A stretch of 64,000 nt of DNA from Desulfoscipio gibsoniae DSM 7213 (GTDB lineage: Bacteria; Bacillota; Desulfotomaculia; Desulfotomaculales; Desulfallaceae), in contig NC_021184.1 of the NCBI RefSeq assembly GCF_000233715.2, positions 4,770,001 to 4,834,000 on the forward strand, given 5' to 3'. The notes under the pieces were generated by a model. It was not told the DNA's origin. It did no database searches and saw nothing but the letters and a program-made list of their open reading frames with translations. How positions within the stretch are numbered: position 1 is the stretch's first letter; each line of letters starts with the position of its first letter. The translations under genes were made by a program, and so were the position numbers. Of the stretch, positions 3,324-62,258 are shown piece after piece.

Positions 3324-3395
3324 CTTTTTTTATCGTTATTTTTCATAAAGAATGGCAATTTGTCAATTTGTGTATAAAATAATAACATTCCAGCT

Positions 3396-3424
3396 ACCAG
3401 GCTTGAACAAAGCCTGGTCTTCTT
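3396..3424 (+). terminator. Intrinsic terminator after the methylase-nuclease pair
   Basis: A perfect 9-bp stem (ACCAGGCTT with AAGCCTGGT) with a 5-base loop, followed by CTTCTTTAT. It lies about 70 bases past the nuclease stop. Confidence 0.75.
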
Positions 3425-3528
3425 TATATGGACGAATATGGAGTTGATTAATGTTTGAAACCATCCCTAAACAAGCGAATATTACTAATATTCGATACAG
3501 GTTCCCCAAAAAAGTAACAGATGAAAGA

Positions 3529-3558
3529 AGCATAAAATAGGGCATATTTTATGCCCTA
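3529..3558 (-). terminator. Intrinsic terminator overlapping the SIR2 gene stop
   Basis: A perfect 9-bp hairpin (TAGGGCATA with TATGCCCTA, loop of three) at 3538-3558. It includes the stop codon of the SIR2 gene and on the minus strand runs into TTTTATGCTTCT. Confidence 0.65.
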
Positions 3559-4425
3559 TATCTTCCCTATTCCATGTGCACTTTTATAGGTTTCTACCGA
3601 TGCTTTTAGCACTTCGAGTTCTTGAGTTAAATCATCGTGAGTTGGTCCGTATTCAAGTGTATCAATATTATAACTAGACTTCCAATCTTTTTCAATTGAA
3701 GGATGAACTCCCTCAAGGGTTACATTATAATGAGATTTTGTTGAACTTGTCCTGATGTAAACATTCTCTAGTAATAAGTTGATATCAGGATCATTTAATC
3801 CGTAACCAATAAATAAAATAGTATTTGTCATAAAAAGTGCTTGCAATATGCTATAAAATTCAGGATAATCCCTTTTGGCGCGAAAATACTGTCCTTTGGT
3901 AAACACAATAGTTCCTATATTATCAATATAACCGTGTGCATATACTAAAACCCTTTTATTAGATTTTATGGCATCAGAAAAGTTACTAGGATTATCATAT
4001 ATTACTTTTGTAATTGCTTGCACAGGAACAGCCTTTTCATATATTTTATCAAAGTTTGTTGTAATTATAATTTTGGGATCGATTTCGCTTATTAACTCAT
4101 GCACTTGACTAGGCTGATAATCAGGGTTTGAAAATTCCTCCGCAATTATATGCTGATATGTTCCACTATCAATTAGATTATTAATACATTGTAATGCCAA
4201 CAAGAATCTTTTTTCTTCAATTAGCCTGGCAATAAACCCCTTATCTGATGGATCAGTTATAAAAGAATCATTTATTGAGGTTAAGAAATTATCCCACGTT
4301 TTAGGCCTCTTGGGTACTGGATCTAAAGTTTTAGCGCCTGCAGAAACCCCTGCACCTAGGAAGAATATACACCTACTCCTAGCTATGTCTTCAATGAGTG
4401 ACGGAGGCCAGTTAATTCTACTCAT
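3556..4425 (-). CDS. SIR2-like domain protein
   Basis: A 289-residue protein of the SIR2_2 family. Visible motifs are FFLGAGVSAG at about 21-30 (nucleotide binding), TTNFD at 122-126 (the sirtuin Asn/Asp segment), HG at 164-165 (the predicted catalytic His) and GYGLNDPDI at 207-215. Proteins of this family are known from anti-phage systems, where they destroy NAD+ when infection is sensed; whether this one does so is inference. There is no DNA-binding or membrane segment. I chose the ATG at 4425, preceded by GGTGAG, over a GTG at 4434. The gene overlaps the ParA-like gene by 8 bases and shares its transcript, so the two probably act together as effector and sensor or switch. Confidence 0.85.
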   Translation of the reverse strand: MSRINWPPSLIEDIARSRCIFFLGAGVSAGAKTLDPVPKRPKTWDNFLTSINDSFITDPSDKGFIARLIEEKRFLLALQCINNLIDSGTYQHIIAEEFSNPDYQPSQVHELISEIDPKIIITTNFDKIYEKAVPVQAITKVIYDNPSNFSDAIKSNKRVLVYAHGYIDNIGTIVFTKGQYFRAKRDYPEFYSILQALFMTNTILFIGYGLNDPDINLLLENVYIRTSSTKSHYNVTLEGVHPSIEKDWKSSYNIDTLEYGPTHDDLTQELEVLKASVETYKSAHGIGKI

Positions 4426-5446
4426 ATAACTCACCCATATTGCGGAGTAATTTGATACACATATCTTCCATCAGTTCAGAATATTGCCTAACCATTTTAA
4501 AATGATTCCCAACAATTCCATCAGGTGTTTTTAAATCATGTATTGGGCAGTGATTTGATTGAGCTAGTGGAACTAAACTGTAAAGATGAGGTATATTTCC
4601 AAGCACTAAGTCATCAATTTGTAAGCCTTTTGGGAAAAGCCAACTTAAATTACGATTGATTATACTCGGTATTTCAACCATTATTTCCTCATATGCCCTG
4701 ATCCCCCGGCGCTCTCCGCCTATAACTTTTGTGATATACTGTTGCACAGAAAAACCCAAAAATCTAAATTTGTTACTTATGTCAAGTGTTATAGGGTACA
4801 TATCTTTTTCTTTTGGGTAACTTTCTTCAAGAAACTTTACGGACCTTACATATGATGCTTGCCACGAGTAAATCCACGTAGCAATATTTTCAATTCCCAT
4901 CAGACTAAAGATATCACAACCCATAGGTGATATAAAATAATCGGAATTCAACAAAATACTTCTGTTTAAGGCTCCTAGGGAGGGTCCTAAATCAATAAAT
5001 AATAAGTCATATTCTTTATCAAAAATACTTTTTAGTGATGTTAGCCAATTGGTTATTCTGAAACCCCCAATTTTGCCACCGTTACAATTTGTCCATGCTT
5101 CACTCAAAATATCCTCAATCAGTGAAACCCGGGGGTGACCCGGAATCAGTTCAAAGTTAAACCTATTTGTTTCTTTAAGTAGTGGTCGGTTGTTTTTATT
5201 AATCTCAGGTTCACCCATTAATAATGGTTGCAAGTATGAAAGTAAAGTAGTTTTATCTGAATCTTTTTTATAAACATCATCACGATAATCGTCGTTTAAA
5301 ATATTTTGAGTTGAATTTGATTGAGGATCTGCATCAATAAAAAGCACTTTTTTTTGGTACTTAAAAGCTATAAATGATGCAATGTTTATTGATAAAGTTG
5401 TCTTTCCTACTCCACCTTTGTTGTTAAAGAAAGAAACAACTATCAT
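4418..5446 (-). CDS. ParA/MinD-like deviant Walker ATPase
   Basis: A 342-residue P-loop ATPase. The deviant Walker A motif NKGGVGKTT is at about 9-17, FIDADPQSN at 36-44 (switch I), and LLFIDLGPSLG at 148-158 (Walker B). The start is the ATG at 5446, preceded by AAAGGTGG; an upstream in-frame ATG has no ribosome site. ParA proteins dimerise on ATP and bind DNA non-specifically. No ParB, centromere-like repeats or replication gene lies nearby, so chromosome or plasmid partition is unlikely. The only partner is the overlapping SIR2 gene. The protein is longer than a minimal ParA (about 250), with an extra C-terminal portion of unknown role. Base composition is AT-rich compared with rlmH beside it, which fits transfer. 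Confidence 0.85.
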   Translation of the reverse strand: MIVVSFFNNKGGVGKTTLSINIASFIAFKYQKKVLFIDADPQSNSTQNILNDDYRDDVYKKDSDKTTLLSYLQPLLMGEPEINKNNRPLLKETNRFNFELIPGHPRVSLIEDILSEAWTNCNGGKIGGFRITNWLTSLKSIFDKEYDLLFIDLGPSLGALNRSILLNSDYFISPMGCDIFSLMGIENIATWIYSWQASYVRSVKFLEESYPKEKDMYPITLDISNKFRFLGFSVQQYITKVIGGERRGIRAYEEIMVEIPSIINRNLSWLFPKGLQIDDLVLGNIPHLYSLVPLAQSNHCPIHDLKTPDGIVGNHFKMVRQYSELMEDMCIKLLRNMGELYE

Positions 5447-5555
5447 TGGAACCACCTTTTTTAACAACTTAATTTCCATCAGATAATAATTCATATAGTT
5501 TTTTCTTTTATTATAGTCTTAATTATCTAATTTGGATAGCACATAAAAACCGCCG

Positions 5556-6035
5556 TTACTTATGGTACGGTTCACCGCGGGATATTTTAAAAGCGCGGTA
5601 AATTTGTTCCAGCAACACCACCCGCATGAGCTGGTGCGGGAAGGTCATGCGGGAAAAGGACAGCCGCCAGTGGGCTTGTTTGAGGGCCTGGGCCGGCAAA
5701 CCCAGGCTGCCGCCAATCAAAAAGGTAATGTCACTGTGCCCGTCCAGGGCCAGCTTATCCAGGCGGGCGGATAGTTCCTCCGAGGATACCTGTTCACCTT
5801 GCACGTCCAGGGCTACCAGATAGGTATCTGCTCTGAGGTGCCGGGCGATCTTTTGCCATTCCCGCTGTTTAATTTTTTCCTCTTCAGCGACCGGCAAACC
5901 CTCAGTATAGCCTTCGTCGGTCACCTCACCTATTTCCAGGCGGCAGTAGGCACTAAGCCGCTTACTATATTCGGCAATTGCTTCACGCCAGTATTTTTCC
6001 TTTAATTTACCCACCGCAGCTACAGTAATCCGCAT
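5556..6035 (-). CDS. rlmH: 23S rRNA pseudouridine-1915 N3-methyltransferase RlmH
   Basis: A full-length (159 residues) SPOUT-class methyltransferase that modifies helix 69 of 23S rRNA. The AdoMet-binding knot is visible as FLIGGSLGLP at 105-114 and the C-terminal segment ending ISRGEPYHK is the conserved family end. The ribosome site AAGGCGGG precedes the ATG. This gene is the orthologue of staphylococcal orfX, whose last codons form the attachment site of SCC elements. Here the equivalent 3' end (ACCGTACCATAAGTAA) directly abuts the ParA-SIR2 block. The gene itself is intact. It is monocistronic or weakly linked to hisF upstream. Confidence 0.97.
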   Translation of the reverse strand: MRITVAAVGKLKEKYWREAIAEYSKRLSAYCRLEIGEVTDEGYTEGLPVAEEEKIKQREWQKIARHLRADTYLVALDVQGEQVSSEELSARLDKLALDGHSDITFLIGGSLGLPAQALKQAHWRLSFSRMTFPHQLMRVVLLEQIYRAFKISRGEPYHK

Positions 6036-6142
6036 CTTTGGCCCGCCTTCTTATATTTAACCGGAAATTACTAAGTTTATCAACATATCAGCTTTATGCA
6101 ACCCTATCTTCATAAATAATTGTACCCCGCCGGAATGAGGGT

Positions 6143-6913
6143 TTAGGCGGTGACAACGCCATTATCCCGTAGATATTGTTTTAACTCCCCAATTAAAATC
6201 TCACCAAAATGGAAAACAGATGCGGCCAGCAGTATATCAGCCTGTCCTTCTTGAGCCGCTGCCAGGAAGTGCTCCATCTTACCAGCCCCGCCGGAGGCGA
6301 TAACAGGTACTTGTACTACCTCTTTAATGCCCTTAATCAAAGGTATGTCATAGCCACTTTTAGCACCGTCACAGGCTTTGCTGGTGGGAAGAATTATTCC
6401 CGCCCCCCTGGCTTCGGCCTGCCTGGCCCATTCCACGGCGTCTGTTCCGGTGGCGGTTTTACCCCCGTCTATGTAAACCTCATAGCCGGAAGGCAAAGCT
6501 GGATTTCTATCTGCGTCAATAGCTACCACCACTTTTTCAGAACCGAATCTCGCTGCAGCCTGGTCCAATAAGTCGGGTTGACGATAAGCCGCGCTGCTGA
6601 TGGACACACGGTCCGCCCCGGCCGCTAAAACAGCTTCAGCATCAGCCAGGGAAGCAATACCACCGCCTACTGTAAATGGGATGGTTGTTACCTCGGCCAC
6701 CCGGCGCACTACATCCAAGGTGGTTTTTCTTTTTTCCAATGTAGCGGTAATATCTAAAAAAGCCAACTCGTCAGCACCGTTTTCACAATATGTACGGGCA
6801 CATTCCACGGGATCACCGGCATCCCGCAAATTGACAAATTGAATTCCCTTTACCACTCTGCCTTCCTTGATATCAAGGCAGGGCATTATAAGAACTTTTT
6901 TCATACTTGACAC
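6143..6913 (-). CDS. hisF: HisF-like imidazole glycerol phosphate synthase subunit
   Basis: A (beta/alpha)8 barrel of HisF size. HisF closes the imidazole ring of IGP using ammonia delivered from HisH. The two catalytic aspartates are retained: CLDIKEGRVVKG (D14) and VVAIDADR (about D133). The phosphate loop VGGGIAS is also present. The loop that in ordinary HisF reads TSIDRDGT reads TSKACDGA here (about 177-184), losing one acidic and one hydroxyl residue. There is no hisH or any other his gene beside it; neighbours are rlmH and murA. Start choice is uncertain: GTG at 6913 has AAAGG at good spacing, while ATG at 6904 and 6919 are alternatives. It may be the only HisF or a diverged second copy. 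Confidence 0.8.
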   Translation of the reverse strand: MSSMKKVLIMPCLDIKEGRVVKGIQFVNLRDAGDPVECARTYCENGADELAFLDITATLEKRKTTLDVVRRVAEVTTIPFTVGGGIASLADAEAVLAAGADRVSISSAAYRQPDLLDQAAARFGSEKVVVAIDADRNPALPSGYEVYIDGGKTATGTDAVEWARQAEARGAGIILPTSKACDGAKSGYDIPLIKGIKEVVQVPVIASGGAGKMEHFLAAAQEGQADILLAASVFHFGEILIGELKQYLRDNGVVTA

Positions 6914-6964
6914 TATCATCCTTTCATTTTAATTATGTACACCAACAGCCATTATTTTTCTATC

Positions 6965-7013
6965 ATAACTCACCCATTCACCTCCCGCATCTACAGGCGG
7001 GAGAGGCTTCACA
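6965..7013 (-). repeat. Hairpin resembling an IS200/IS605 right end
   Basis: On the minus strand GAAGCCTC is followed by CTCCCGCC, a short loop and GCGGGAGG, then TGAATG. This pattern of GAAGCC plus a GC hairpin is typical of right ends of IS200/IS605 elements. No transposase lies nearby, so it would be a relic; a plain stem-loop is the alternative. Confidence 0.35.
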
Positions 7014-7123
7014 GCAGTTCCGAAAATCCTTTTATTATAGCCAAAGTAACAGACGAACAGTCACGTATACAATTAGCCGGTTATTGTTTTACAAACTGCT
7101 TTGTTTTTAGTTCAATAAACAGC

Positions 7124-7149
7124 AAAAAAGGCGCAAATTGACGCCTTTT
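7124..7149 (-). terminator. Intrinsic terminator after murA
   Basis: An 8-bp stem (AAAAGGCG with CGCCTTTT) followed on the minus strand by a run of T. It lies 20 bases past the murA stop. Confidence 0.8.
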
Positions 7150-7169
7150 GCAAACAAGTTATACAAAGT

Positions 7170-8432
7170 TTAAGCCTGACCCCTTTTGATCTCTACGCCT
7201 AGTTTGGTGAGTTTTTCCTCCAACAGGTGATAACCCCGGTCGATAAAATGGGTGTTATATATCTCGGTTTGCCCCTGGGCCATCAGAGCGGCAATTACCA
7301 GGGCTGCTCCGGCACGCAAATCAGTGGCTTTTATATTGGTGCCGCATAAACAGGGTACTCCCTCCACCACAGCCATACGTCCTTCAACTTTGATATGGGC
7401 CCCCATTCTTTTCAACTCATCGGCAATCTGAAACCGGTTCTCAAAAATATTCTCTATGATAATACTGGTACCTTTTATCGTGGATAAAAGGGCCATCATT
7501 TGCGACTGCATATCGGTAGGAAAACCTGGATAAGGCATCGTTTTTATATCTACAGGGTGCAATTCTCCGGTTGCATTAACGGTAAGCCTATCGTCGTCCT
7601 CATAGACTTGGACACCGGCTTCCCGCAGTTTGGCACAAATAGGTTCCACGTGTAAAGGGATGACATGCTCAAGCACTAAATGCCCCCTGGTGGCCGCTGC
7701 TGCCACCATAAAAGTGCCTGACTCAATACGATCCGGGATAACGGCATAACGCACACACCCACCGAGTTCGGATACCCCTTCAACTTTAATAACATCGGTA
7801 CCGGCACCCCGCACTTTAGCGCCCAGGCAGTTAAGGAAGTTTGCCAGGTCAACTATTTCCGGTTCTTTAGCTACATTTTCCAGCACAGTTTGTCCCTCGG
7901 CAAGGCAGGCGGCCATCATAATATTTTCGGTGGCGCCTACACTGGGAAAGTCCAGATAAATACGGGCACCCTTCAACCGGTTGGTGCATTTGCCCACGGC
8001 AAACCCACCGTCAAGGTTAATTTGTGCACCCATACCAGCCAGTCCCTTAAAATGAAGATCCATAGGCCTGACGCCGATATTGCAGCCTCCGGGTAGAGAG
8101 ACCCTGGCATAGCCAAACCTGGCCAGCATTGGTCCCAACAGTAAATTTGATGCACGAAGCTTTTTGACCAGATCGCATGGTGGATCCGCCGATATAACAG
8201 CAGGTGCCATAATCCTGAGCGATGAGCTGCTTAGCCAGGTCACCTCAGAGCCGATATGTTTAATAATCTCTATCACTACTCTGACATCGCTAATATCAGG
8301 AATGTTCTCCAGCACTACTTCATCGCCGGCCATAATAGTAGCGCATAAAATTGCCAAAGACGCATTTTTAGCGCCGCTGATACGCACCTTTCCCTGCAGC
8401 GGCCGCCCCCCGTTAATAATTAGTTTGTCCAT
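7170..8432 (-). CDS. murA: UDP-N-acetylglucosamine 1-carboxyvinyltransferase MurA
   Basis: A 420-residue enzyme of peptidoglycan synthesis that transfers enolpyruvate from PEP to UDP-GlcNAc in the cytoplasm. The start at MDKLIINGG (8432) is the family start; an upstream in-frame extension overlaps the previous gene and is not credible. Lys22/Asn23 in RISGAKNAS, the Arg in LRASN, and Cys117 in the PGGCNIG loop (the fosfomycin target) are all present. It starts two bases after the stop of the peptidase gene upstream, with GGGAGG 12 bases before the ATG, so the two are cotranscribed. Firmicutes often carry two murA copies; which one this is cannot be told here. Confidence 0.96.
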   Translation of the reverse strand: MDKLIINGGRPLQGKVRISGAKNASLAILCATIMAGDEVVLENIPDISDVRVVIEIIKHIGSEVTWLSSSSLRIMAPAVISADPPCDLVKKLRASNLLLGPMLARFGYARVSLPGGCNIGVRPMDLHFKGLAGMGAQINLDGGFAVGKCTNRLKGARIYLDFPSVGATENIMMAACLAEGQTVLENVAKEPEIVDLANFLNCLGAKVRGAGTDVIKVEGVSELGGCVRYAVIPDRIESGTFMVAAAATRGHLVLEHVIPLHVEPICAKLREAGVQVYEDDDRLTVNATGELHPVDIKTMPYPGFPTDMQSQMMALLSTIKGTSIIIENIFENRFQIADELKRMGAHIKVEGRMAVVEGVPCLCGTNIKATDLRAGAALVIAALMAQGQTEIYNTHFIDRGYHLLEEKLTKLGVEIKRGQA

Positions 8433-51736: not shown

Positions 51737-51893
51737 ACTTTCACCTCTTAATTTCATTTGCATATTTAGACATAATACGCATACCTGTACCGGTGAGTTA
51801 CAGTTTTAAACCCTGGATTAAAAAAAGAATCACATCCAGTAACAATCACAAAAATTTTGCGTAACCTATCAATAAATTAAAAAAATGGGGTTT

Positions 51894-53141
51894 ATGTCCA
51901 TGGAAATAGCAACCAAGTCGGGTGAGCACCCGCAACTTACTAAGGCTGAAATGGTATCGGGGGATATTGAGGCACATTGCTTGAGTAATTCAAAAAAACA
52001 AGAAAGAACGCAACAAGAAACAAGTAATACCCAAGATATCATTGTTCGGTTTATCAATCCTGGTGATTTTTACGCATGTAATAATTTTCACAATAATTTG
52101 TATAAGAAAGATAGGACAGATACCCAATGGCAATGGGAATTTTTGCATTCCGGTTTACCTGAGATACCTTTTGTTGTGGCAGCCAAAGATGAAGAAATTT
52201 TAGGCACGCTGGCCCAAATCCCCATCCGCATGATTGACCAAGAGGGGGAATTTTTAACCGGTAAATCTGAGGAGGCACTATTAGACCCGGCTATTCGAGG
52301 TAAAGGAATATACCCACAAATGTTTAAAAAAATTTTTGACTATATGGAAAGCCAGAATATTTTGGTTGTCTGGGGGTTTACACCTGCAATAAAAGCTAAT
52401 GTAAAGGCGGGCTTTGAAGAACACACCGGAATTGCCCAATTGTTTTTTCCATTTCATGCAGACGCAATTAACGTGTTGTTGAAAAATAATCGCTCATCGA
52501 AAATAAAAGTTAAAGGAATAAAAATTTTATGCAGCCTGGCCGGTGTTTTTTCTTCCATCTCTTTATGCAGTACCGGGTTAAGAATAAATAATTCCTTGGC
52601 CCAAAATATTTGCTTAAAGACGTTATCTACCCCTCCCGAAGAAGGTGCGGATTTATGCCGTACGTTTGTTAGACAATGGGGAGGTACAACTATTCTAAGG
52701 AATGCCTCATTTCTGAAATGGCGAATTTTTGAAAACCCTCATATCCGGGCCACGGTACGTGCTGCATATCTGGATAACCAACTTTTGGGTTGGGTGGCTT
52801 ATTCACTGGATGACAATTCTGTTGGGCACATTGTAGATATCATAGCTGCTTCAAACAAGATTAATTCATCAAGCATGGAAACGGTTGTGGCAGTTTTACT
52901 CAAAGACGCGGTGGTAGGCCTGCGTAAAACAGGTGCACTGGGTGTCAGGGCATGGAAAGTAAACAGTCATCCCTTTGATGATTTAGTCGCCCGGGCAGCA
53001 CGCAAAGTAGGGTTTTATTTTATCCCCCGTGGCGAGTGGATGGTACTTCATTACCTGCAAGGCTCCGCTGCCCGGCCCTCACTTAAATCAATCGACAACT
53101 GGTACATTAATAGAATTTATACCGAAGGGGTGTTGGGGTGA
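51894..53141 (+). CDS. GNAT family N-acetyltransferase, two-domain
   Basis: About 415 residues. After a polar N-terminal tail (about 1-45), the acetyl-CoA fold is seen in FVVAAKDEEILGTLAQIPIR, SEEALLDPAIRGKGIYPQMF (the RGxG pyrophosphate loop near 135-145) and WGFTPAIKANVKAGF. A second GNAT-like half follows from about 255. Related proteins occur in exopolysaccharide clusters. Start is unsettled: ATG 51885 and ATG 51894 share the frame and neither has a strong ribosome site. The deacetylase-like gene overlaps its stop. Confidence 0.78.
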   Translation: MSMEIATKSGEHPQLTKAEMVSGDIEAHCLSNSKKQERTQQETSNTQDIIVRFINPGDFYACNNFHNNLYKKDRTDTQWQWEFLHSGLPEIPFVVAAKDEEILGTLAQIPIRMIDQEGEFLTGKSEEALLDPAIRGKGIYPQMFKKIFDYMESQNILVVWGFTPAIKANVKAGFEEHTGIAQLFFPFHADAINVLLKNNRSSKIKVKGIKILCSLAGVFSSISLCSTGLRINNSLAQNICLKTLSTPPEEGADLCRTFVRQWGGTTILRNASFLKWRIFENPHIRATVRAAYLDNQLLGWVAYSLDDNSVGHIVDIIAASNKINSSSMETVVAVLLKDAVVGLRKTGALGVRAWKVNSHPFDDLVARAARKVGFYFIPRGEWMVLHYLQGSAARPSLKSIDNWYINRIYTEGVLG

Positions 53142-54580
53142 TGAAAACTGTCGAAGCTAATTATTTATGGCAACAAATCCTTCAGCATACGATGCGTTTT
53201 TTTACTCAAGAAGCTGTTGATATGCTGAAAAAAGTAAACATTCGTTTTCTCCCCTATGCAGAGGCTGTCCACATTAGAGAGCCGTTAATTGCCGTACCAC
53301 TGGATATTGATACTTCGATTTACCCGGAAGCCCCATATAAAGTACTCTTTAATGGTACGGAATTAACCCTCTGGAACCCTTTGCCTCGGCCCCGGGGGGA
53401 TGGTTGGAACTGCCTGCCCAATGCGGATGCCCCTGTTTGGTACCGGCATGATCAGGGGACACTTATTCCTGCCTGGAATATCTTTGCCAACCTGTTCGAT
53501 TTGCTTACTTTGCGCGAGGAAAGGGAGAAACCCCTGCGGGACGTTCACGGCCGGTTTATTGGATCAATGAGTCCCAGACGTAAAGTCAATTTATTGGAGG
53601 TACCGGCTTTCAACGAAGGAGTCGCAATCCTGGTGGCTGCCTGCTCCGGATTGTATAAACAAAACCTTCCCAGGTTTGATTTAAATGGTTTGGTACAGCC
53701 GCCCGTGGTTATCTTATCCCACGACAATGACAACCTGCGCGGTAATGATATGTGGACTCAGTCGGTACGGTTTGTAAGAATTTTTCAACCTTTAATTAGT
53801 TTTAAAGTTCCCCGCCTGGTGAATTTATGGTGGATCTTGCGCAACACGGTTTATCCTAAAGCTTATTATTTGGAGAATATAACCGGCATGGTAGATGTGG
53901 AAAAAATGTTTGGCTACACTTCGTCTTTTTACTTCTTGAACGGTTCCGGCGGCCGTTTCGGAGCCAGAAGCGGGTCAGCCTTAATACCGGAAGCAATGAG
54001 ACAAATCCCCCGGGATTGGGTAGTCGGCATTCACTACAACTACGATACCTTACTTAATGCTGAAAAGCTTACCAGTCAATTAACGGAACTAAGTTCTTAT
54101 TTTGATAGGCCAATTGTGTCAGGCAGAGCACATTACCTGCGTTTTGATCCCGAAAAATCATTTTCTTTCCTTGCTTCCATGGGTATTTATTGCGATGAAA
54201 GCGTTGGTTATCCGGATTACATCGGGTACCGCTGTGGGATTGCCGGACCTTTTCAACCATACGATCACTTATCCGGTCAAGCCCTACCCCTTTGGGAGAT
54301 GCCCCTGATCATCATTGAAAATACGCTGATCAATCAATATCCCCGGGAACCGGTTAAAGTTTTCCACCGCCTGCTGTACCATATCAGCCGCATTGGCGGG
54401 GCCATCAGCCTGCTTTTTCACCCCGGCCTTTTTTTTAACCCGGAGTTCCCTGAAACCAGAGGGATATACCGCCGCATCCTGCGGGTCGCCTGTCAATTGG
54501 AAGCCCGGGGTAAGCCGGCTGTTAGTTTATTACCATTGCAAATTCAAAACATGGACTTAACCCATAAATATAATCTTTAA
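53141..54580 (+). CDS. Polysaccharide deacetylase-like protein
   Basis: About 479 residues, cytoplasmic by sequence. The C-terminal two thirds fit the NodB-like deacetylase fold in its long form: ILSHDNDNLRGNDMW near 190, VGIHYNYDTLLNAEKL near 293, SGRAHYLRFDP near 327, DESVGYPDYIGYRCGIAGPF near 352 and SLLFHPGLFFNP near 426. The Asp/His set for metal binding is plausible. Together with the GNAT gene it overlaps, it may set the acetylation state of a sugar, which is inference. Confidence 0.72.
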   Translation: MKTVEANYLWQQILQHTMRFFTQEAVDMLKKVNIRFLPYAEAVHIREPLIAVPLDIDTSIYPEAPYKVLFNGTELTLWNPLPRPRGDGWNCLPNADAPVWYRHDQGTLIPAWNIFANLFDLLTLREEREKPLRDVHGRFIGSMSPRRKVNLLEVPAFNEGVAILVAACSGLYKQNLPRFDLNGLVQPPVVILSHDNDNLRGNDMWTQSVRFVRIFQPLISFKVPRLVNLWWILRNTVYPKAYYLENITGMVDVEKMFGYTSSFYFLNGSGGRFGARSGSALIPEAMRQIPRDWVVGIHYNYDTLLNAEKLTSQLTELSSYFDRPIVSGRAHYLRFDPEKSFSFLASMGIYCDESVGYPDYIGYRCGIAGPFQPYDHLSGQALPLWEMPLIIIENTLINQYPREPVKVFHRLLYHISRIGGAISLLFHPGLFFNPEFPETRGIYRRILRVACQLEARGKPAVSLLPLQIQNMDLTHKYNL

Positions 54581-54838: not shown

Positions 54839-56245
54839 TTACCCCAAGTATGGCTGCAACAAGCTCCTGATATCTTCATCCGCATAAGAAAAGCTGGGGT
54901 TTTCCAATGTGGCAAGCAGCTCTTTCACCCTAGCAAAGTTTTTAGTGGAACTGTAAATAGCAAATATTATATTATGTTGAGTAGTTTTTACTTCCTCATC
55001 GTCCCCAACAAGCACTTCCGTAATTTTTTCCCCCGGCCTGATGCCGGTATACTGAATAGCAATTTCCTTTTCGGGTTCCAGACCATTTAGCTTGATTAAT
55101 TTATAAGCCAAATCTTTGATGCATACGGGTTCCCCCATATCCAAAACAAATATTTCCCCTCCAACGGCAATGGCCCCCGCCTGAATTACCAGCAAAGCAG
55201 CTTCACCCACCGTCATAAAATAACGCATCATTTGCGGGTGAGTAATGGTAACCGGCCCGCCTCTGGCGATTTGCTTTTCAAACAAAGGTATGACACTACC
55301 TCTGCTGCCCAGTATATTACCAAAACGAACAGCAGCAAACTTAGTTTGGCTTTGCTCATTCATCATCACTACAATGGTTTCCGCTATCCTTTTAGTTACC
55401 CCCATGATACTGGTCGGCTTAACAGCCTTATCGGTGGATATTAATACAAATTTATCACAATTAAAGTCGTGGGCCACTTCACACATAACCTTAGTACCTA
55501 AAATGTTATTCTTTACTGCCTCCTCAGGTATCCTTTCCATATAGGGCACATGTTTGTGAGCAGCGGCATGAAAGACAACCCCCGGTTTGTATTTTTGAAA
55601 AAGCCTGGTTATTCTGCCACGATCTCTAATATCGGCTATCTCAGTAGCTATATCCACCTGCGGGTGACTGAGTTTTATCTTTCTTTCAACTTCATAAATA
55701 CTGTTTTCCCCCCGCCCCATTAGTACTAATTTCCCCGGATTGCTGTTAGCTATATTAGCGCTCAGTTCCATGCCTACCGAACCACCAGCCCCGGTGACCA
55801 ATACTACCTGGTCATTTAAATAATTATTTATACTGCCTAAATCAAGTGCTAATGATTTACGACCCAACAAGTCCTCCAACTGTACTTCCCTTATGGGGGT
55901 GGGGTTGATGCGACCGGTTTTTAAATCATATGCGCCTGGTAATATTTGAATTTTTACCTTGGCCAGCCTTTTACATATTTGGATAATATCGCTTACCTCA
56001 ACGGGGGGCGCTGAAGGCAGGGCAATGATTATTTCGTTAACTTTGTGCCTGTCAGCTATACGCGGAATATCCAAACGATTGCCCAGAACAGGTAAACCAC
56101 AGACTTCCAAGTTAAGTTTACTCTGATCATCATCAATAAAGCCAATAATTACCGGCCTTTCTTTTAAATTGCTGATGGATTGAACAACCAGGCTGCCGGC
56201 TAAACCCGCACCTACTATTAGTACCCTACTTCGCCTGTCCTCCAC
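54839..56245 (-). CDS. CapD/PglF-type UDP-sugar 4,6-dehydratase, soluble form
   Basis: A 468-residue protein from GTG 56245 (ribosome site AGAGGT). Residues about 5-120 form a CoA-binding-like Rossmann domain (VLIVGAGLAGSLVVQSI); residues about 140-460 are the SDR 4,6-dehydratase with VTGAGGSVGMELS, HAAAHKHVPYMER, STDKAVKPTSIMGVTKR (the T/S-M-K catalytic set) and RFGNILGSRGSVIPLF. It lacks the four N-terminal membrane helices of WbpM/CapD. It would convert UDP-GlcNAc to the 4-keto-6-deoxy sugar, the entry to many amino sugars. Divergent from the diamino-uronate operon. Confidence 0.92.
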   Translation of the reverse strand: MEDRRSRVLIVGAGLAGSLVVQSISNLKERPVIIGFIDDDQSKLNLEVCGLPVLGNRLDIPRIADRHKVNEIIIALPSAPPVEVSDIIQICKRLAKVKIQILPGAYDLKTGRINPTPIREVQLEDLLGRKSLALDLGSINNYLNDQVVLVTGAGGSVGMELSANIANSNPGKLVLMGRGENSIYEVERKIKLSHPQVDIATEIADIRDRGRITRLFQKYKPGVVFHAAAHKHVPYMERIPEEAVKNNILGTKVMCEVAHDFNCDKFVLISTDKAVKPTSIMGVTKRIAETIVVMMNEQSQTKFAAVRFGNILGSRGSVIPLFEKQIARGGPVTITHPQMMRYFMTVGEAALLVIQAGAIAVGGEIFVLDMGEPVCIKDLAYKLIKLNGLEPEKEIAIQYTGIRPGEKITEVLVGDDEEVKTTQHNIIFAIYSSTKNFARVKELLATLENPSFSYADEDIRSLLQPYLG

Positions 56246-56571
56246 TGTATTACCTCTCTTTTTATACCGTGCAAGGTAAGTTTTATTTTCTATGATATGG
56301 AAGAACAGCAAATTAGGTGATTATCTTTGTCTTTTAAAAAAAAATTTACATAGTAATCTTAACGTCACTAAGACCGGCGATATAGGTGATCGCAAAAATA
56401 TCCTGCCTATGCATTTTTGTAACCATATTATGCTTATTAGCGTATTATGTAGCGATATTCACGAAAGCAGCGACACCCGGAATTTAGATCCACAGGAAAC
56501 TCATAATATGGCTAATGATTAGCTTTTGTACTTGATACCGCCGGTGTTAAAAACCGAGGAGAGTATGGTGT

Positions 56572-57822
56572 ATGGGATCAGCTGTAAAAAAAAGCATATG
56601 GATATTTAATCATTACGCTGGAACACCATCTGTTACAACCGGGCTGCGTCATTATAATTTTGCAAAATATTTGATTAAGGCCGGTTACCCCACAACTGTT
56701 TTTGCCTCCAGTGCTATTCATAACTCAAATAACAATCTTATTAAAGGCAAAGAAACTTACATCACTGATGATAGTGAGGAAGTTCCGTTTGTATATGTAA
56801 AAACCCGTAATTATCAAGACAACGGGAAATCCCGAATTTTAAACATGATTGACTACTACCGAGGGCTATTTAAAGTAACCAAGTACTTTGAGAAGCCGGA
56901 TTTACTAATAGCATCTTCGGTTCATCCATTAACTTTGGTTGCCGGGCTCAAAATTGCCAAGAAACTGGATGTAAAGTGTATTTGTGAAATCAGGGACTTA
57001 TGGCCGGAAAGCTTTGTGGCCTATGGAATTGTTAAGAAAAGCAATCCAATACTTAAATTGCTTTATGCAGGTGAGAAATGGATTTATAAAAAAGCAGACA
57101 AACTTATTTTTACTATGGAAGGGGGTAAAGATTACATAATTGAGCATGGTTGGGATAAGGAGCATGGTGGTCCGATTGATATAAACAAAGTATACCATGT
57201 TAATAATGGAGTTGATTTGGAACAATTTAATTATAATAAGGAACACTATGCTCTAGATGATAAAAATTTAAACGATGAAACCACTTTCAAAGTTATATAT
57301 ACAGGTTCCGTAAGGCGTGTAAATAATTTAAATTCAATACTTGAGGCAGCTAAATTAATTAAAAACCCCAAAATTAAAATATTTATATGGGGCGATGGTG
57401 ACGAAAGACTACCGCTTCAACAGCAGTGCCGGGATAATGGAATCGACAATGTAATTTTTAAGGGTCGAGTTGATAAGAAATATATCCCTTATATTTTATG
57501 CCATGCGGATGTGAATTTATTACACAACGACTATACCCCCATCACGCGTTATGGAATGAGTCAAAACAAGTTGTTTGATTATATGGCTGCTAATAAACCA
57601 ATAGTATCAGATTTAATAACAAACCACGATTTGATATTAAGATATAAACTTGGTGTTGTTACAGAGAATCAAAGCCCTCAGAAAATCAAAGAAGCAATTG
57701 AAAAGTTCTATTACATGACCGCTGAAGAACGACTGGCTTTAAACGATAACCTGCATCGGGCGGCATGTGATTATGACTTTAAAAATTTAACCAACCAATT
57801 AATTAACATTATTGAGATATGA
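56572..57822 (+). CDS. GT4 family glycosyltransferase (WbuB-like)
   Basis: A 416-residue GT-B enzyme starting KKSIWIFNHYAGTPSVTTGL, with CEIRDLWPESFVAYGI near 140 and KLIFTMEGGKDYIIEHG, the pattern of WbuB/WbpH-type transferases. FKVIYTGSVRRVNNLNSIL near 238 and MSQNKLFDYMAANKPIV near 328 are the donor side. Very AT-rich. It heads the plus-strand operon; GAGGAGAG lies eight bases before the ATG. It probably transfers the sugar made by the four enzymes that follow. Confidence 0.9.
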   Translation: MGSAVKKSIWIFNHYAGTPSVTTGLRHYNFAKYLIKAGYPTTVFASSAIHNSNNNLIKGKETYITDDSEEVPFVYVKTRNYQDNGKSRILNMIDYYRGLFKVTKYFEKPDLLIASSVHPLTLVAGLKIAKKLDVKCICEIRDLWPESFVAYGIVKKSNPILKLLYAGEKWIYKKADKLIFTMEGGKDYIIEHGWDKEHGGPIDINKVYHVNNGVDLEQFNYNKEHYALDDKNLNDETTFKVIYTGSVRRVNNLNSILEAAKLIKNPKIKIFIWGDGDERLPLQQQCRDNGIDNVIFKGRVDKKYIPYILCHADVNLLHNDYTPITRYGMSQNKLFDYMAANKPIVSDLITNHDLILRYKLGVVTENQSPQKIKEAIEKFYYMTAEERLALNDNLHRAACDYDFKNLTNQLINIIEI

Positions 57823-57846: not shown

Positions 57847-59154
57847 ATGAGTAAACTAAAACAAAAAATCCAAAACAAAACAGCCACCCTTGGCGTGGTG
57901 GGTCTAGGTTATGTAGGACTCCCTTTGGCTGTTGAAAAAGCCAAGGCAGGTTATAAAACCATTGGATTCGACGTGCAAGAATCCAAAGTAAAGATGGTTA
58001 ACTGTGGCAAAAACTACATCGGTGACGTAGTTAATGAGGATTTAGAGGCTATTGTTAAGTCCGGATTTCTTTCAGCCACAACAGATTTTGCAAAGGTAGC
58101 GCAGGCGGATTGCGTGTGTATATGCGTACCAACACCGCTGGACGCACATCAGCAGCCGGTTATCAGCTATGTCAAAGCTTCCGCACAAAGCATCCTGCTC
58201 TATATGCACAAGGACATGCTGATCGTTCTAGAATCCACAACATATCCCGGTACAACAAAAGAACTGTTAAAGCCTATTTTTGAGTCATCGGGTTTGAAAT
58301 GTGGAAAAGACTTCTATCTGGCATTTTCACCGGAGCGCGTCGACCCGGGCAATCTTTTTTATAAGGTTAAGAACACACCAAAGGTCGTAGGTGGTATTAC
58401 ACCGGAGTGTACTGATATAGCTGCTACTTTGTACGAAAGCGTACTGGAAGCTCCTATACACCGTGTTTCCTCACCTACCATCGCCGAAATGGAAAAAATA
58501 CTGGAGAACGCCTATCGAAATATCAACATTGGACTTATAAATGAGCTTGCCATTCTTTGTAACCGGATGGGTATCAGCATTTGGGAAGTAATCGATGCCG
58601 CTAAAACCAAACCCTACGGATTTCAAGCATTCTATCCGGGAGCAGGTGTGGGTGGCCATTGCATACCTCTCGATCCATATTATCTCTCATGGAAAGCCCG
58701 TGAATATGGTTTCCATACATCCATGATTGAGGCATCCATGATAATTAATGATCGCATGCCGGAATATTGTGTTGAGAGAGCAAGCAAGATTTTAAATAGA
58801 GATAAAAAAGCACATAATGGCTCAAAAATTCTTGTGCTTGGCGTAGCGTACAAACAGGATATAGATGATTACAGGGAAAGCCCTGCCCTTAAAGTTATAG
58901 ATATTCTCAAAGAAACAGGTGCGTCGGTTGATTATTATGACCCGTATATCAGCGAGTATAGATACAAAGGCGAAATTTTTAAAGGTCTTGAGAGCATCGA
59001 TGCTGATATGCTTAAAAGCTATGATTTGATTGTCATAACCGCGTCCCATAGTAATGTGGATTATGACTTTGTTGCAGCAAATTCTAAGTGGGTGTTCGAT
59101 ACCAAAAACGCTACTAAAAATGTACAAAATAGAAATAACATTATTTTACTATAG
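57847..59154 (+). CDS. wbpA: UDP-N-acetylglucosamine 6-dehydrogenase, WbpA type
   Basis: A 435-residue member of the UDP-glucose/GDP-mannose dehydrogenase family. LGVVGLGYVGLPLAVEKAK is the NAD loop, AFSPERVDPGN and YPGAGVGGHCIPLDPYYLSW (catalytic Cys) are marks of the branch that oxidises N-acetylated UDP-hexosamines (WbpA, WecC). AYKQDIDDYRESPA near 340 fits too. Product would be UDP-GlcNAc uronic acid, used by the oxidoreductase next. Ribosome site CTGGAGAG. Confidence 0.93.
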   Translation: MSKLKQKIQNKTATLGVVGLGYVGLPLAVEKAKAGYKTIGFDVQESKVKMVNCGKNYIGDVVNEDLEAIVKSGFLSATTDFAKVAQADCVCICVPTPLDAHQQPVISYVKASAQSILLYMHKDMLIVLESTTYPGTTKELLKPIFESSGLKCGKDFYLAFSPERVDPGNLFYKVKNTPKVVGGITPECTDIAATLYESVLEAPIHRVSSPTIAEMEKILENAYRNINIGLINELAILCNRMGISIWEVIDAAKTKPYGFQAFYPGAGVGGHCIPLDPYYLSWKAREYGFHTSMIEASMIINDRMPEYCVERASKILNRDKKAHNGSKILVLGVAYKQDIDDYRESPALKVIDILKETGASVDYYDPYISEYRYKGEIFKGLESIDADMLKSYDLIVITASHSNVDYDFVAANSKWVFDTKNATKNVQNRNNIILL

Positions 59155-59193
59155 GGAACCGCATCGCAAAATAGTTTATAGGGAGTAACTGCA

Positions 59194-60153
59194 ATGGACA
59201 AAAAAATATGTGTAATTGGAGGAGGTTTATGGGGACAAAACCACATCAGGACTCTCTTCCAAATGGGTAATTTAGCAGGCATTGTAGAAAGTACTCCGCA
59301 AAGGTTGGATGAACTGTTGAGGCAATACCCGGTTCACGGTTTTACGGATGTGGATGCCGCCATCAAGTGGGGATTTGACGGCTATGTTCTAGCAACACCG
59401 GCAGAGACCCATTATCCCCTGGGGAAAAAGTTGTTGGAAAGGGGCTTGAATGTACTCATAGAAAAACCAATGACCCTTTCCTCAAAACACTCCAAACAGC
59501 TTATTGAGATTGCTGATCGAACAAATGCCAGACTTATGGTAGGACATCTATTACTTTTCCATCCGGCTATTATAAAAATCAAAGAAGTAATCGACAGCGG
59601 CAAGATTGGCCAACTTTATTATGTTTACTCAAACAGGTTAAACTTTGGCACAGTTAGAACTGAGGAGAATATTTTCTGGTCATTTGCGCCCCATGATATT
59701 TCCATCCTGGATTATTTCATTGGCCGTCCTGCCACCAAGATAGCAGCCAAAGGAGCAAAATTCCTCCAAGATAAAATTTATGACGTAACTATGACCCAGT
59801 TTGCCTACCCGGGCAATGTACACGCTCATATCTTTGTATCCTGGCTTCATCCATTCAAAGAACAAAGATTGGTTGTGGTGGGCAGCCGGGGAATGATATC
59901 TTTTGATGATTCCTCTTTAGAGAAGAACATCCTTTATTATAAAAAACAAATCGGCTGGCTTAAGGGTCAACCAGTTAAAATAGAGCAGCCCGATGAAATC
60001 ATTGATTATGAGAAAGGTATGCCTTTGACTGAAGAGCTAAAATATTTTGTTGAAAACCTGGATAAAACAATCGAGATTGCCAGTGGTAAAACCGGACACG
60101 AAGTGGTCAAGGTACTGGAGACCGTGCAAGAGTTAATAAGCAAGGATTGGTGA
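59194..60153 (+). CDS. wbpB: Gfo/Idh/MocA oxidoreductase, WbpB type
   Basis: A 319-residue NAD-dependent enzyme. VIGGGLWGQNHIRTLF is the dinucleotide loop, and LIEKPMTLSSKHS with the EKP motif lies near 90. SFAPHDISILDYFIGR contains the conserved substrate His. In this position after WbpA it should oxidise C3 of UDP-GlcNAcA to the 3-keto sugar. The end overlaps the formyltransferase leader region. Confidence 0.9.
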   Translation: MDKKICVIGGGLWGQNHIRTLFQMGNLAGIVESTPQRLDELLRQYPVHGFTDVDAAIKWGFDGYVLATPAETHYPLGKKLLERGLNVLIEKPMTLSSKHSKQLIEIADRTNARLMVGHLLLFHPAIIKIKEVIDSGKIGQLYYVYSNRLNFGTVRTEENIFWSFAPHDISILDYFIGRPATKIAAKGAKFLQDKIYDVTMTQFAYPGNVHAHIFVSWLHPFKEQRLVVVGSRGMISFDDSSLEKNILYYKKQIGWLKGQPVKIEQPDEIIDYEKGMPLTEELKYFVENLDKTIEIASGKTGHEVVKVLETVQELISKDW

Positions 60154-60158
60154 AAAAA

Positions 60159-60845
60159 ATGATTGGAGTATTCACATATAACATAGCGCACAGAAAAACA
60201 TACGATACCCTTTGCCTCTTAAAAACCAAAGGGTATCATGATGTGGCGGTATTTGCCGAGCCCTTGCATTATGCAAAGAAATATACGCCGCTTATAGAGC
60301 ATCGACCAAAAAACTTCAATGATGTTCTTCCATCGGAAATATGCAAAAACTTTGGCTACGAATACCATATGCAAAATACAAGTGTGAAGGATATACTCCC
60401 TGTAAATTCAAAAATACTGATATGCGGAGCGGGCCTCATTCCACAGTCCATAGTGGAGCAATATAGAGTTATTAATGCTCATCCGGGATACATTCCTTAT
60501 GTTAGAGGGCTGGATGCTCTCAAATGGGCAATTTACGATGAGCAGCCCATCGGTGTCACAACTCATCAAATAGGCTCTGAAGTGGATGCGGGATTAATAA
60601 TCGAAAGAAGGATTGTTCCAGTCTACTTTAATGATACTTTCCATGCAGTGGCACAAAGACAGTACGACATGGAAATATCAATGCTGGTGGATGCTATTGC
60701 CAAAATTGATGTGGCGACGGAATATGTGGAACCTGGCAATTATAAACTACATAAGCGCATGCCCCATGAATTTGAAACGAGGCTTCTTTCCAAATTCGAA
60801 AAATTAAAAGATAAGGCCGTGATTAAATGCAATTCAGAGATTTAA
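60159..60845 (+). CDS. Sugar N-formyltransferase (formyl transferase fold)
   Basis: A 228-residue protein of the methionyl-tRNA formyltransferase superfamily without a tRNA-binding domain. VINAHPGYIPYVRGLDALKW holds the catalytic Asn and His, and GSEVDAGLIIERR the catalytic Asp of the N-H-D triad, so N10-formyltetrahydrofolate chemistry is expected. In related pathways (WbpD) an acetyltransferase modifies the 3-amino group; here a formyltransferase stands in that slot between WbpB- and WbpE-like genes. The start is ATG 60159 with GGTGA six bases ahead; TTG 60147 is an alternative. Overlaps the aminotransferase gene by 19 bases. Confidence 0.85.
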   Translation: MIGVFTYNIAHRKTYDTLCLLKTKGYHDVAVFAEPLHYAKKYTPLIEHRPKNFNDVLPSEICKNFGYEYHMQNTSVKDILPVNSKILICGAGLIPQSIVEQYRVINAHPGYIPYVRGLDALKWAIYDEQPIGVTTHQIGSEVDAGLIIERRIVPVYFNDTFHAVAQRQYDMEISMLVDAIAKIDVATEYVEPGNYKLHKRMPHEFETRLLSKFEKLKDKAVIKCNSEI

Positions 60846-61954
60846 AAAAGCAATATCAAAAATATAAGCATGAAATAGATACGGCAATACGGGAAGTACT
60901 GCTTAGTGCAGAATATATCGGCGGTAGACAGGTTAGTGAATTAGAAGAGCAGTTGGCCGAATATGTTGGCGTGAAACACTGCATCTCCTGCGCTAATGGA
61001 ACCGAAGCCATGACGCTGGTGGCAATGGCTTGGGGAGTTAAAGAAGGAGATGCAGTGTTCGTACCCGATTTTACGTTCTTTTCAACTGGTGAAATTGTTT
61101 CTTTTCAAGGGGCCACCCCCATATTCGTGGATGTTGACAGAGACACTTTCAACTTAGATGCCACAAAACTAGAGAAAGCAATTCAAAAGACAGTAAAGGA
61201 AGGAAAGCTAACCCCCGGGGTTGTCATACCTGTTGATTTGTTTGGCCTGCCCGCAAATTATCCTGAGATAGAAAAAATAGCGCGTAAATATAATTTGTTA
61301 GTGCTGGAAGACGGAGCCCAAGGCTTCGGTGGCAATATTAACGGACAAAGAGCCTGCAGTTTCGGCGACGCAGCGACTACTTCATTCTTCCCCGCCAAAC
61401 CACTGGGATGCTACGGAGATGGCGGAGCTGTGTTTACCAATGATGACGAATTGGCACAGCTTATCAAATCCCTTAAGGTTCACGGTAAGGGTGATAATAA
61501 ATATGATAATGTTAGAATTGGCTTAAATTCAAGATTGGACACCATACAAGCAGCCGTGCTAAAAGTTAAGCTACAAGCGTTTATCAACCACGAACTGGAA
61601 GATGTTAATCGGGTGTCCCGGCTTTATAACGAAGGGCTTGAAGGTATTATTGAAATACCTCTTATTCCGGAGGGGTTTTATTCAAGTTTTGCACAGTATA
61701 CTATTAAATTAAAAAGTAATGAACAACGCAATAACCTGAAAGATAAACTCAAGCAGAAGGGCATCCCCAGTATGGTTTATTACACCAAGCCAATGCATCA
61801 GCAGGGTGCCTTTGCAAATTTAGAGTTTGACGAAAATGATTTTAAAGTAACCAATGAGCTTTGCAATATTGTGCTGTCTCTACCAATGCATCCTTATTTA
61901 AGTGATCAAGACATAGAAACAATTATAAGGGAAGTTATGCTAAATACATGCTAA
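60827..61954 (+). CDS. wbpE: DegT/DnrJ/EryC1/StrS aminotransferase, WbpE type
   Basis: A 375-residue PLP-dependent aminotransferase for nucleotide keto-sugars. CISCANGTEAMTLVAMAW binds the cofactor phosphate, LVLEDGAQGFGG holds the Asp/Gln under the ring, and SFFPAKPLGCYGDGGAV carries the PLP Lys. Placed after WbpA and WbpB it should aminate C3 of the 3-keto-uronate with glutamate. It is last in the operon. Confidence 0.94.
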   Translation: MQFRDLKKQYQKYKHEIDTAIREVLLSAEYIGGRQVSELEEQLAEYVGVKHCISCANGTEAMTLVAMAWGVKEGDAVFVPDFTFFSTGEIVSFQGATPIFVDVDRDTFNLDATKLEKAIQKTVKEGKLTPGVVIPVDLFGLPANYPEIEKIARKYNLLVLEDGAQGFGGNINGQRACSFGDAATTSFFPAKPLGCYGDGGAVFTNDDELAQLIKSLKVHGKGDNKYDNVRIGLNSRLDTIQAAVLKVKLQAFINHELEDVNRVSRLYNEGLEGIIEIPLIPEGFYSSFAQYTIKLKSNEQRNNLKDKLKQKGIPSMVYYTKPMHQQGAFANLEFDENDFKVTNELCNIVLSLPMHPYLSDQDIETIIREVMLNTC

Positions 61955-62102: not shown

Positions 62103-62178
62103 TGGTGACCCCACCGGGATTCGAACCCGGGTTACCGCCGTGAAAGGGCGGTGTCTTAGGCCTCTTGACCATGGGGCC
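62103..62178 (-). tRNA. tRNA-Glu (anticodon TTC), CCA encoded
   Basis: A 76-base cloverleaf: acceptor GGCCCCA with TGGGGTC (one G-T), anticodon stem CCGCC/GGCGG with loop CTTTCAC (anticodon TTC), T-arm CCGGG/CCCGG around TTCGAAT, and encoded CCA. Downstream of tRNA-Lys in one transcript. Confidence 0.97.
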
Positions 62179-62182
62179 GTTT

Positions 62183-62258
62183 TGGTGAGCCATCCGCGAC
62201 TCGAACGCGGGACACCCTGATTAAAAGTCAGGTGCTCTACCGACTGAGCTAATGGCTC
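62183..62258 (-). tRNA. tRNA-Lys (anticodon TTT), CCA encoded
   Basis: A 76-base cloverleaf: acceptor GAGCCAT with ATGGCTC, D-arm with AGTCGGTA, anticodon stem CCTGA/TCAGG with loop CTTTTAA (anticodon TTT), T-arm CCGCG/CGCGG and encoded CCA. Four bases separate it from tRNA-Glu. Confidence 0.97.

Follow-up and report, generated by a model that had tools for sequence, protein, structure and literature searches.

Which acyl group is placed on the 3-amine of a diaminouronate when a formyltransferase lies where the pathway would usually have its acetyltransferase? This question is raised by four plus-strand genes that fill positions 57847-61954 of a 64,000-nucleotide stretch of the Desulfoscipio gibsoniae DSM 7213 genome (NC_021184.1, positions 4,770,001 to 4,834,000), which was analysed as a whole and is called the window in the following. 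The genes encode a WbpA-like dehydrogenase of uridine diphosphate (UDP) sugars, an oxidoreductase of the Gfo/Idh/MocA family (Gfo), an N-formyltransferase (FT) and a WbpE-like aminotransferase (Table 1). The WbpA-WbpB-WbpE-WbpD-WbpI pathway of Pseudomonas aeruginosa makes UDP-ManNAc3NAcA, as described in excerpts of PMC10622841. Like this pathway, the window combines a 6-dehydrogenase, a Gfo-family dehydrogenase and a WbpE-like aminotransferase in one cassette, and N-acylation of a 3-amine would be expected; unlike it, the window has FT for WbpD, a 3-dehydrogenase of another class and no 2-epimerase gene in the cassette. Two defining Wbp features that were tested, WbpD and a WbpB of the P. aeruginosa type, are absent from the window. 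Nevertheless, we consider it probable that the cassette encodes a Wbp-type UDP-diaminouronate pathway in which a formyl group replaces the second acetyl group, giving UDP-2-acetamido-3-formamido-2,3-dideoxy-glucuronate (UDP-GlcNAc3NFoA).

Evidence for an exchange of the acyltransferase comes from the genes beside related aminotransferases. Among 398 sampled genomes of the window's phylum, the subfamily of the window aminotransferase has 13 other members (52-78% identity, E 6e-127 or better); outside the subfamily the next match is at E 1.6e-90, and the remaining matches do not exceed 45% identity except for a partial one of 48%. In flanks of roughly 1.5 kb the neighbouring gene is WbpD-type in six of the 13 relatives, LpxD-like in one and FT in one, and five have none of these. 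The locus with the closest aminotransferase found (L131, 78% identical) has the order WbpA - Gfo - WbpD-type - aminotransferase - 2-epimerase. Its Gfo matches that of the window with 581 bits, and the WbpD-type gene occupies exactly the slot of FT. The WbpD-type protein matches a lipopolysaccharide-biosynthesis acetyltransferase in the PDB (3mqg, E 4.9e-59), which we take to be WlbB, the WbpD counterpart of Bordetella. The 2-epimerase can be named WbpI by position only, because the family cut-off that it passes is wecB. In L134, a WbpE-type relative without FT, a glycosyltransferase gene (411 bits to that of the window, and in the same place) is followed by WbpA, Gfo (491 bits), an LpxD-like acyltransferase and the aminotransferase, and a CapD relative lies upstream (424 bits). 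In L008 the order is Gfo of another class - FT - aminotransferase. The position of FT is an acyltransferase slot with a changing occupant. The sequence-only reading, made before any database search, had proposed that a formyl group replaces the acetyl group added by WbpD to the 3-amine, and the WbpD-type gene in the FT slot of the nearest relative found supports this by position. As FT occupies the usual acetyltransferase place, a formylated version of the diaminouronate is probably made.

The same arrangement recurs beyond the window. A scan of genome contigs for FT yielded 61 loci, of which 58 contain an FT open reading frame (ORF; none was above threshold in L062, L067 and L068); L061 and L063-L066, with 27-35 bits, belong to these 58 and lie outside the 53 loci used for neighbour statistics. 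The neighbourhood tables are based on phmmer comparisons with single reference proteins and on mechanically defined ORFs. Aminotransferase and Gfo-family genes each make up 21 of 103 immediate neighbours of FT in the 53 loci, compared with 3 and 5 of 273 genes at a distance of 5-10 genes, and by this enrichment a chance adjacency was rejected. Gfo-family and aminotransferase genes lie on the same strand within 6 kb in 25 of the 58 loci, and 11 of these 25 also have WbpA; L035, which looks like a locus for a 3-amino sugar linked to deoxythymidine diphosphate (dTDP), and L040 and L048, whose aminotransferases score weakly, are doubtful members of the 25. L011 and L037 are not counted because the same strand was required and their Wbp-type genes lie on the other one. 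The 25 loci come from Bacillota, Verrucomicrobiota, Bacteroidota, Pseudomonadota, Thermodesulfobacteriota and Spirochaetota (origins as shown in the trees). Three classes of Gfo partner occur in FT cassettes, namely that of the window, that of L005 and L008, which is presumably WlbA-like, and the P. aeruginosa WbpB class. Sunxiuqinia elliptica has the order aminotransferase - FT - WbpA - WbpB, its WbpB matches PDB WbpB 3oa2 at E 8e-105, and its genome gave no WbpD match at E 1e-20.

Repeated exchange is also visible in a tree of the aminotransferases, made like all our trees by a quick method without bootstraps. It has 42 rows, one for the window and 41 from the 42 loci selected (14 of the 25 loci with Gfo and aminotransferase, L011 and 26 others); the fused protein of L114 gave no row. 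Of two identical copies, L011 received the FT label in spite of an FT on the opposite strand, and L142 the label 'none'. The FT label, carried by 13 rows, needs 8 changes on the tree, at least 6 of them forced by well-supported (starred) branches, whereas shuffled labels need 11.4 on average and only 10 of 500 shuffles were as low as 8. FT-linked and WbpD-linked aminotransferases interleave, and the FT label is somewhat clustered yet has changed several times. The closest row to that of the window is WbpD-linked (L098, which is the gene of L131), followed by the FT-linked L008.

A wbpD homologue elsewhere in the genome, a check that the sequence-only reading had named, was searched for, and the window's genome gave no WbpD match at E 1e-20. 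The best result of a looser search was a 55-residue hexapeptide stretch of 43 bits. When the 10 hexapeptide proteins of this genome found with PF00132 were compared with the WbpD profile, none looked like WbpD: the highest score (64.5 bits) came from two partial stretches of a 464-residue frame resembling GlmU, and two tandem hexapeptide proteins near 3452542 and 3453194 reached 47 and 49 bits. WbpDs of five control genomes, which were chosen since WbpD had already been seen in each and one of which is the query itself, score 323-430 bits in the direct search. On the basis of these searches, a WbpD encoded elsewhere in the genome was rejected. Besides the window's genome and the controls, the search took 17 of the 25 loci with Gfo and aminotransferase (L031 dropped out) together with L046 and L056; L014, L035, L036, L040, L048, L052, L057 and L059 lay outside its scope. 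No WbpD was found at E 1e-20 in 15 of the 19 FT-cassette genomes searched (the window's and 14 of 18 others), which were reached through their loci and for which no completeness is given.

The protein itself has the properties of a formyltransferase. FT passes the gathering score of PF00551 (Formyl_trans_N; 43.5 bits, cut-off 26.1). An Asn-His-Asp catalytic triad is a feature of the formyltransferase family that depends on N10-formyl-tetrahydrofolate (N10-formyl-THF), and the residues N106, H108 and D143 of FT (counted from the ATG at 60159) are invariant in 46 aligned sequences including the window, which is partly so by construction because the patterns of the contig scan that found the sequences included these residues. 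G117 and D119 of an RGLD stretch are invariant in the same alignment as well, and an N-terminal Y-x(3)-H-x-K-T is nearly invariant. A profile of the 46 sequences picks up known N-formyltransferases in the PDB. No NCBIfam family, the curated equivalogs for sugar N-formyltransferases included, is matched by FT at its cut-off, the best being NF005755 (55.5 bits, cut-off 238). The AlphaFold model (predicted local distance difference test, pLDDT, 93.5; predicted template modelling score, pTM, 0.90) has the formyltransferase fold, and its alignments to formyltransferase structures span residues 1-228; Fmt, formyl-THF dehydrogenase, ArnA, WbkC and WlaRD all lie within 1.2 Z units of each other in this comparison. 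FT shares its fold with the sugar 3-N-formyltransferases WlaRD, QdtF and FdtF (Z 15.4-15.7), in which we assume the same Asn-His-Asp triad, and would share with them the formylation of a 3-amino sugar nucleotide. These enzymes act according to their entry titles on dTDP-6-deoxy sugars (dTDP-Qui3N or dTDP-Fuc3N), whereas FT belongs to a cassette of the UDP-uronate type; over the aligned residues, identity between FT and the three enzymes is 13-15%. The ATG at 60159, 5 bases past the Gfo stop codon, is the likelier start of FT, a TTG at 60147 also being possible, and at its other end the gene reaches 19 nucleotides into that of the aminotransferase.

From these assignments a route can be proposed. 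The WbpA-like enzyme would oxidise C6 of UDP-N-acetylglucosamine (UDP-GlcNAc) to give UDP-GlcNAcA, at a point that the proposal leaves free relative to the oxidation of C3. It belongs to the WbpA-type 6-dehydrogenases, with 427.8 bits to TIGR03026 (nucleotide sugar dehydrogenase, cut-off 189.8) and no narrower family over its cut-off, and its best PDB relative is 4r16, a hypothetical UDP-ManNAcA dehydrogenase (E 6e-72). Gfo, as the putative 3-dehydrogenase in the place of WbpB, would oxidise C3. Its best NCBIfam match is NF040723, an archaeal UDP-GlcNAc 3-dehydrogenase (150 bits, below the cut-off of 450), and PDB WbpB 3o9z is matched weakly over residues 60-137 (E 1.7e-5); by both comparisons it is not a WbpB of the P. 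aeruginosa class. The aminotransferase, which probably acts at C3, would turn the 3-keto group into an amine. It is of the WbpE type (PDB WbpE 3nyu, E 6e-92) and has an NSRLDT stretch in common with WbpE; its highest-scoring PDB match is 4qgr (E 1.3e-114), titled only 'DegT/DnrJ/EryC1/StrS aminotransferase'. FT would then transfer a formyl group from N10-formyl-THF, instead of acetyl from acetyl-CoA, to the 3-amine. PurN and Fmt use N10-formyl-THF, and since the genome encodes both over their cut-offs the donor is presumably present. The cassette is without a 2-epimerase, and when that of L131 was compared with the genome, the single match shared 32% identity with it; the product therefore probably has the gluco form. 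Finally, incorporation of the sugar into a surface polymer would probably be the work of the adjacent glycosyltransferase and the polysaccharide cluster. ORFs, Pfam and NCBIfam confirm the WbpA-like and WbpE-like genes and the overlapping formyltransferase gene that had been read from the letters; for the supposed WbpB-like gene, a Gfo-family dehydrogenase is indeed present, but it is nearer to the archaeal UDP-GlcNAc 3-dehydrogenase than to P. aeruginosa WbpB.

The rival explanation that survives best, which we nevertheless regard as unlikely, is that the substrate of FT is UDP-GlcNAc3N, formylated on its 3-amine before C6 is oxidised or with no such oxidation, so that WbpA serves another sugar and the product is neutral UDP-2-acetamido-3-formamido-glucose. 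The window Gfo resembles an enzyme named for UDP-GlcNAc, its best family, and a non-uronate product is therefore possible; moreover, only 11 of the 25 FT loci with Gfo and aminotransferase have WbpA within 6 kb, some loci being cut by contig ends. Against this, a WbpA-like gene lies directly upstream in the window, L131 and L134, and WbpA is found near FT in the Verrucomicrobiota loci L032, L033, L034, L039, L043, L046 and L054. We give very little weight to a second alternative, in which the VimE-like protein encoded in the same cluster (Table 1) would first take off the 2-acetyl group and FT would then formylate the freed 2-amine, by analogy with the Wbp/Vim linking-sugar pathway of Porphyromonas gingivalis. 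Excerpts of PMC7468200 describe that pathway as a Wbp cassette with a later N-acyl change, in which VimE and VimA are proposed to swap the 2-acetyl group; unlike the window it uses WbpD in addition to this exchange, and the word 'formyl' is absent from the main text. For the 61 FT loci, neither the VimE-like nor the GNAT protein of the window has a match listed; FT occupies the slot of WbpD, and a pathway that lacks WbpD would leave the 3-amine free of an acyl group. The third alternative, a 4-amino sugar made via the CapD-type dehydratase of the same cluster, had been suggested by the sequence-only reading and was rejected as highly improbable, because CapD is no recurrent neighbour of FT (no gene above 30 bits to the window's CapD on either strand in 61 FT loci) and is encoded opposite to the cassette strand, past the glycosyltransferase gene, and because FT overlaps a WbpE-type aminotransferase gene, even if several sugar formyltransferases among the fold matches (VioF, Rv3404c with Qui4N, a Francisella 4-N enzyme) use 4-amino sugars by their entry titles.

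Several observations weigh against the preferred reading. Whether a 3-amine or a 4-amine is the acceptor cannot be read from the fold, because such diverse formyltransferases score almost alike. In four of the 58 FT loci (L014, L015, L031 and L056), a WbpD-type or LpxD-like gene is a same-strand neighbour no more than 6 kb away; since both acyltransferases are present there, FT 'instead of' WbpD is not universal. Among the genomes searched, those of L015, L033, L056 and L060 have a WbpD match, which in L015 and L056 sits in the cassette itself. Many close FT relatives stand alone. Fifteen genomes have an FT that was not counted beside a cassette; 11 of them carry a WbpE-type aminotransferase relative (E 1e-40), some of which adjoin WbpB-type or WbpA genes. 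In L139, L140 and L148 the aminotransferase adjoins a WbpD-type gene and FT lies elsewhere, so that in these genomes FT may have another task or add a second product. Such a pairing of a WbpD-type cassette with an FT located elsewhere does not bear on the window's own slot, and it leaves our estimate for the window as it is.

Relatives of FT are also encoded by 23 viral-contig loci, in L177 weakly. In the viral contig L160, a WecB/WbpI-like epimerase, a DegT aminotransferase, FT and WbpB follow in a row at 3861-7644 as a partial cassette, and the same contig has late sigma factor and transaldolase genes. Among PDB entries whose names refer to a sugar pathway, QdtB is the best match of its aminotransferase, which matches WbpE at E 1.7e-56; its WbpB matches PDB WbpB at E 1.5e-93. 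In L157 the order is FT - epimerase - WbpB-like. WbpA was not found in six phage records, which may be fragments, and the 6 records from the plasmid collection of GenBank and the 7 from its phage collection did not include any in which a single place covers 80% of FT. A further point against the preferred reading is that the FT relatives of L156, L158 and L159 (about 6001-6680, 49-51% identical) precede a gene of 379-390 residues and then a DnaB-like helicase gene (the helicase was shown for L156 and L158); in L158 the gene after FT is a calcineurin-like phosphoesterase. These three proteins may formylate something else, for which we think of a formylated base or another amine. Owing to the stand-alone relatives and the phage members near replication genes, the FT subfamily may use more than one amine.

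With regard to the wider pattern, we see about even chances that the acylation of UDP-diaminouronates is an exchangeable module, in which a frame of WbpA, 3-dehydrogenase and WbpE is combined with WbpD, an LpxD-like enzyme or FT. Such a module would have undergone several exchanges and would involve three 3-dehydrogenase classes, with phages carrying the formyl version and perhaps altering surface glycans of their hosts.

LpxD-like genes occur in the WbpD slot of L134 (6299-7222) and directly upstream of WbpA in L131 (3658-4581), in a cassette that also has WbpD, and these acyltransferases may add a longer N-acyl group. L131 further encodes a small protein (2896-3627) that is a deacetylase by eye and matched no Pfam or NCBIfam family.

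The cassette of the window forms the end of a polysaccharide cluster that also contains Wzx-like, Wzy-like, LytR-CpsA-Psr, FemAB-like and glycosyltransferase genes, and the GT4-type glycosyltransferase is a possible user of the sugar. The VimE-like and GNAT pair is reminiscent of VimE/VimA of the Wbp/Vim pathway. Besides two tRNA genes, which possibly mark an insertion edge of the polysaccharide cluster, purA, whose label was tested, lies next to the cassette. Promoter-like sites number 25 (18.4 expected) and terminator-like sites 11 (5.7 expected).

Table 1. Positions of the cassette and of neighbouring features in the window.
Feature	Position	Strand	Remarks
WbpA-like UDP-sugar 6-dehydrogenase	57847..59154	+	435 aa; TIGR03026 over cut-off
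Gfo/Idh/MocA oxidoreductase	59194..60153	+	319 aa; PF01408 and PF22725
N-formyltransferase (FT)	60159..60845	+	ATG 60159, 228 aa; PF00551; ORF listed from 60147
WbpE-like DegT aminotransferase	60827..61954	+	375 aa; PF01041 324 bits
GT4-type glycosyltransferase	56572..57822	+	PF00534; directly upstream of WbpA-like gene
CapD-type dehydratase	54839-56311	other strand than cassette	beyond glycosyltransferase gene
VimE-like protein	53138-54580		NF053580 53.5 bits, cut-off 440
GNAT protein	51885-53141		adjoins VimE-like gene
Two tRNA genes	62106-62258	minus	directly after cassette

A description of FT in place of WbpD was not found in the open-access literature (titles and starts of abstracts), and the novelty of the combination is provisional because subscription journals lay outside this search. 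Variation at N3 of diaminouronates is known, as the index of a review lists a 3-hydroxybutyl-type amide of GlcNAc3NA, and the passages of this review that were examined contain no 3-formamido diaminouronate (PMC3210612). If the proposed pathway is correct, it predicts the sugar nucleotide UDP-2-acetamido-3-formamido-glucuronate, together with an enzyme subfamily for it that occurs in phages as well as in several bacterial phyla. We suggest that this FT beside a WbpE-type aminotransferase be used as an annotation rule, replacing the general formyltransferase label. Furthermore, purified enzymes would allow a direct test of which acyl group is chosen at C3 of diaminouronates. The recognition of surface glycans can be altered by the change of a single N-acyl group.

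Some FT loci contain possible fusions, namely GNAT-like with FT (L020, 7449-8681), FT with WbpD-like (L035, 4626-5936) and Gfo with WbpD-like (L056, 9920-11509). In the Verrucomicrobiota FT cassette of L039, a gene for a sugar-phosphate isomerase of the KpsF/GutQ family (1507-2457) lies between WbpA and Gfo, and L043 has a similar ORF at 6040-6990 (the family was tested for L039 only).

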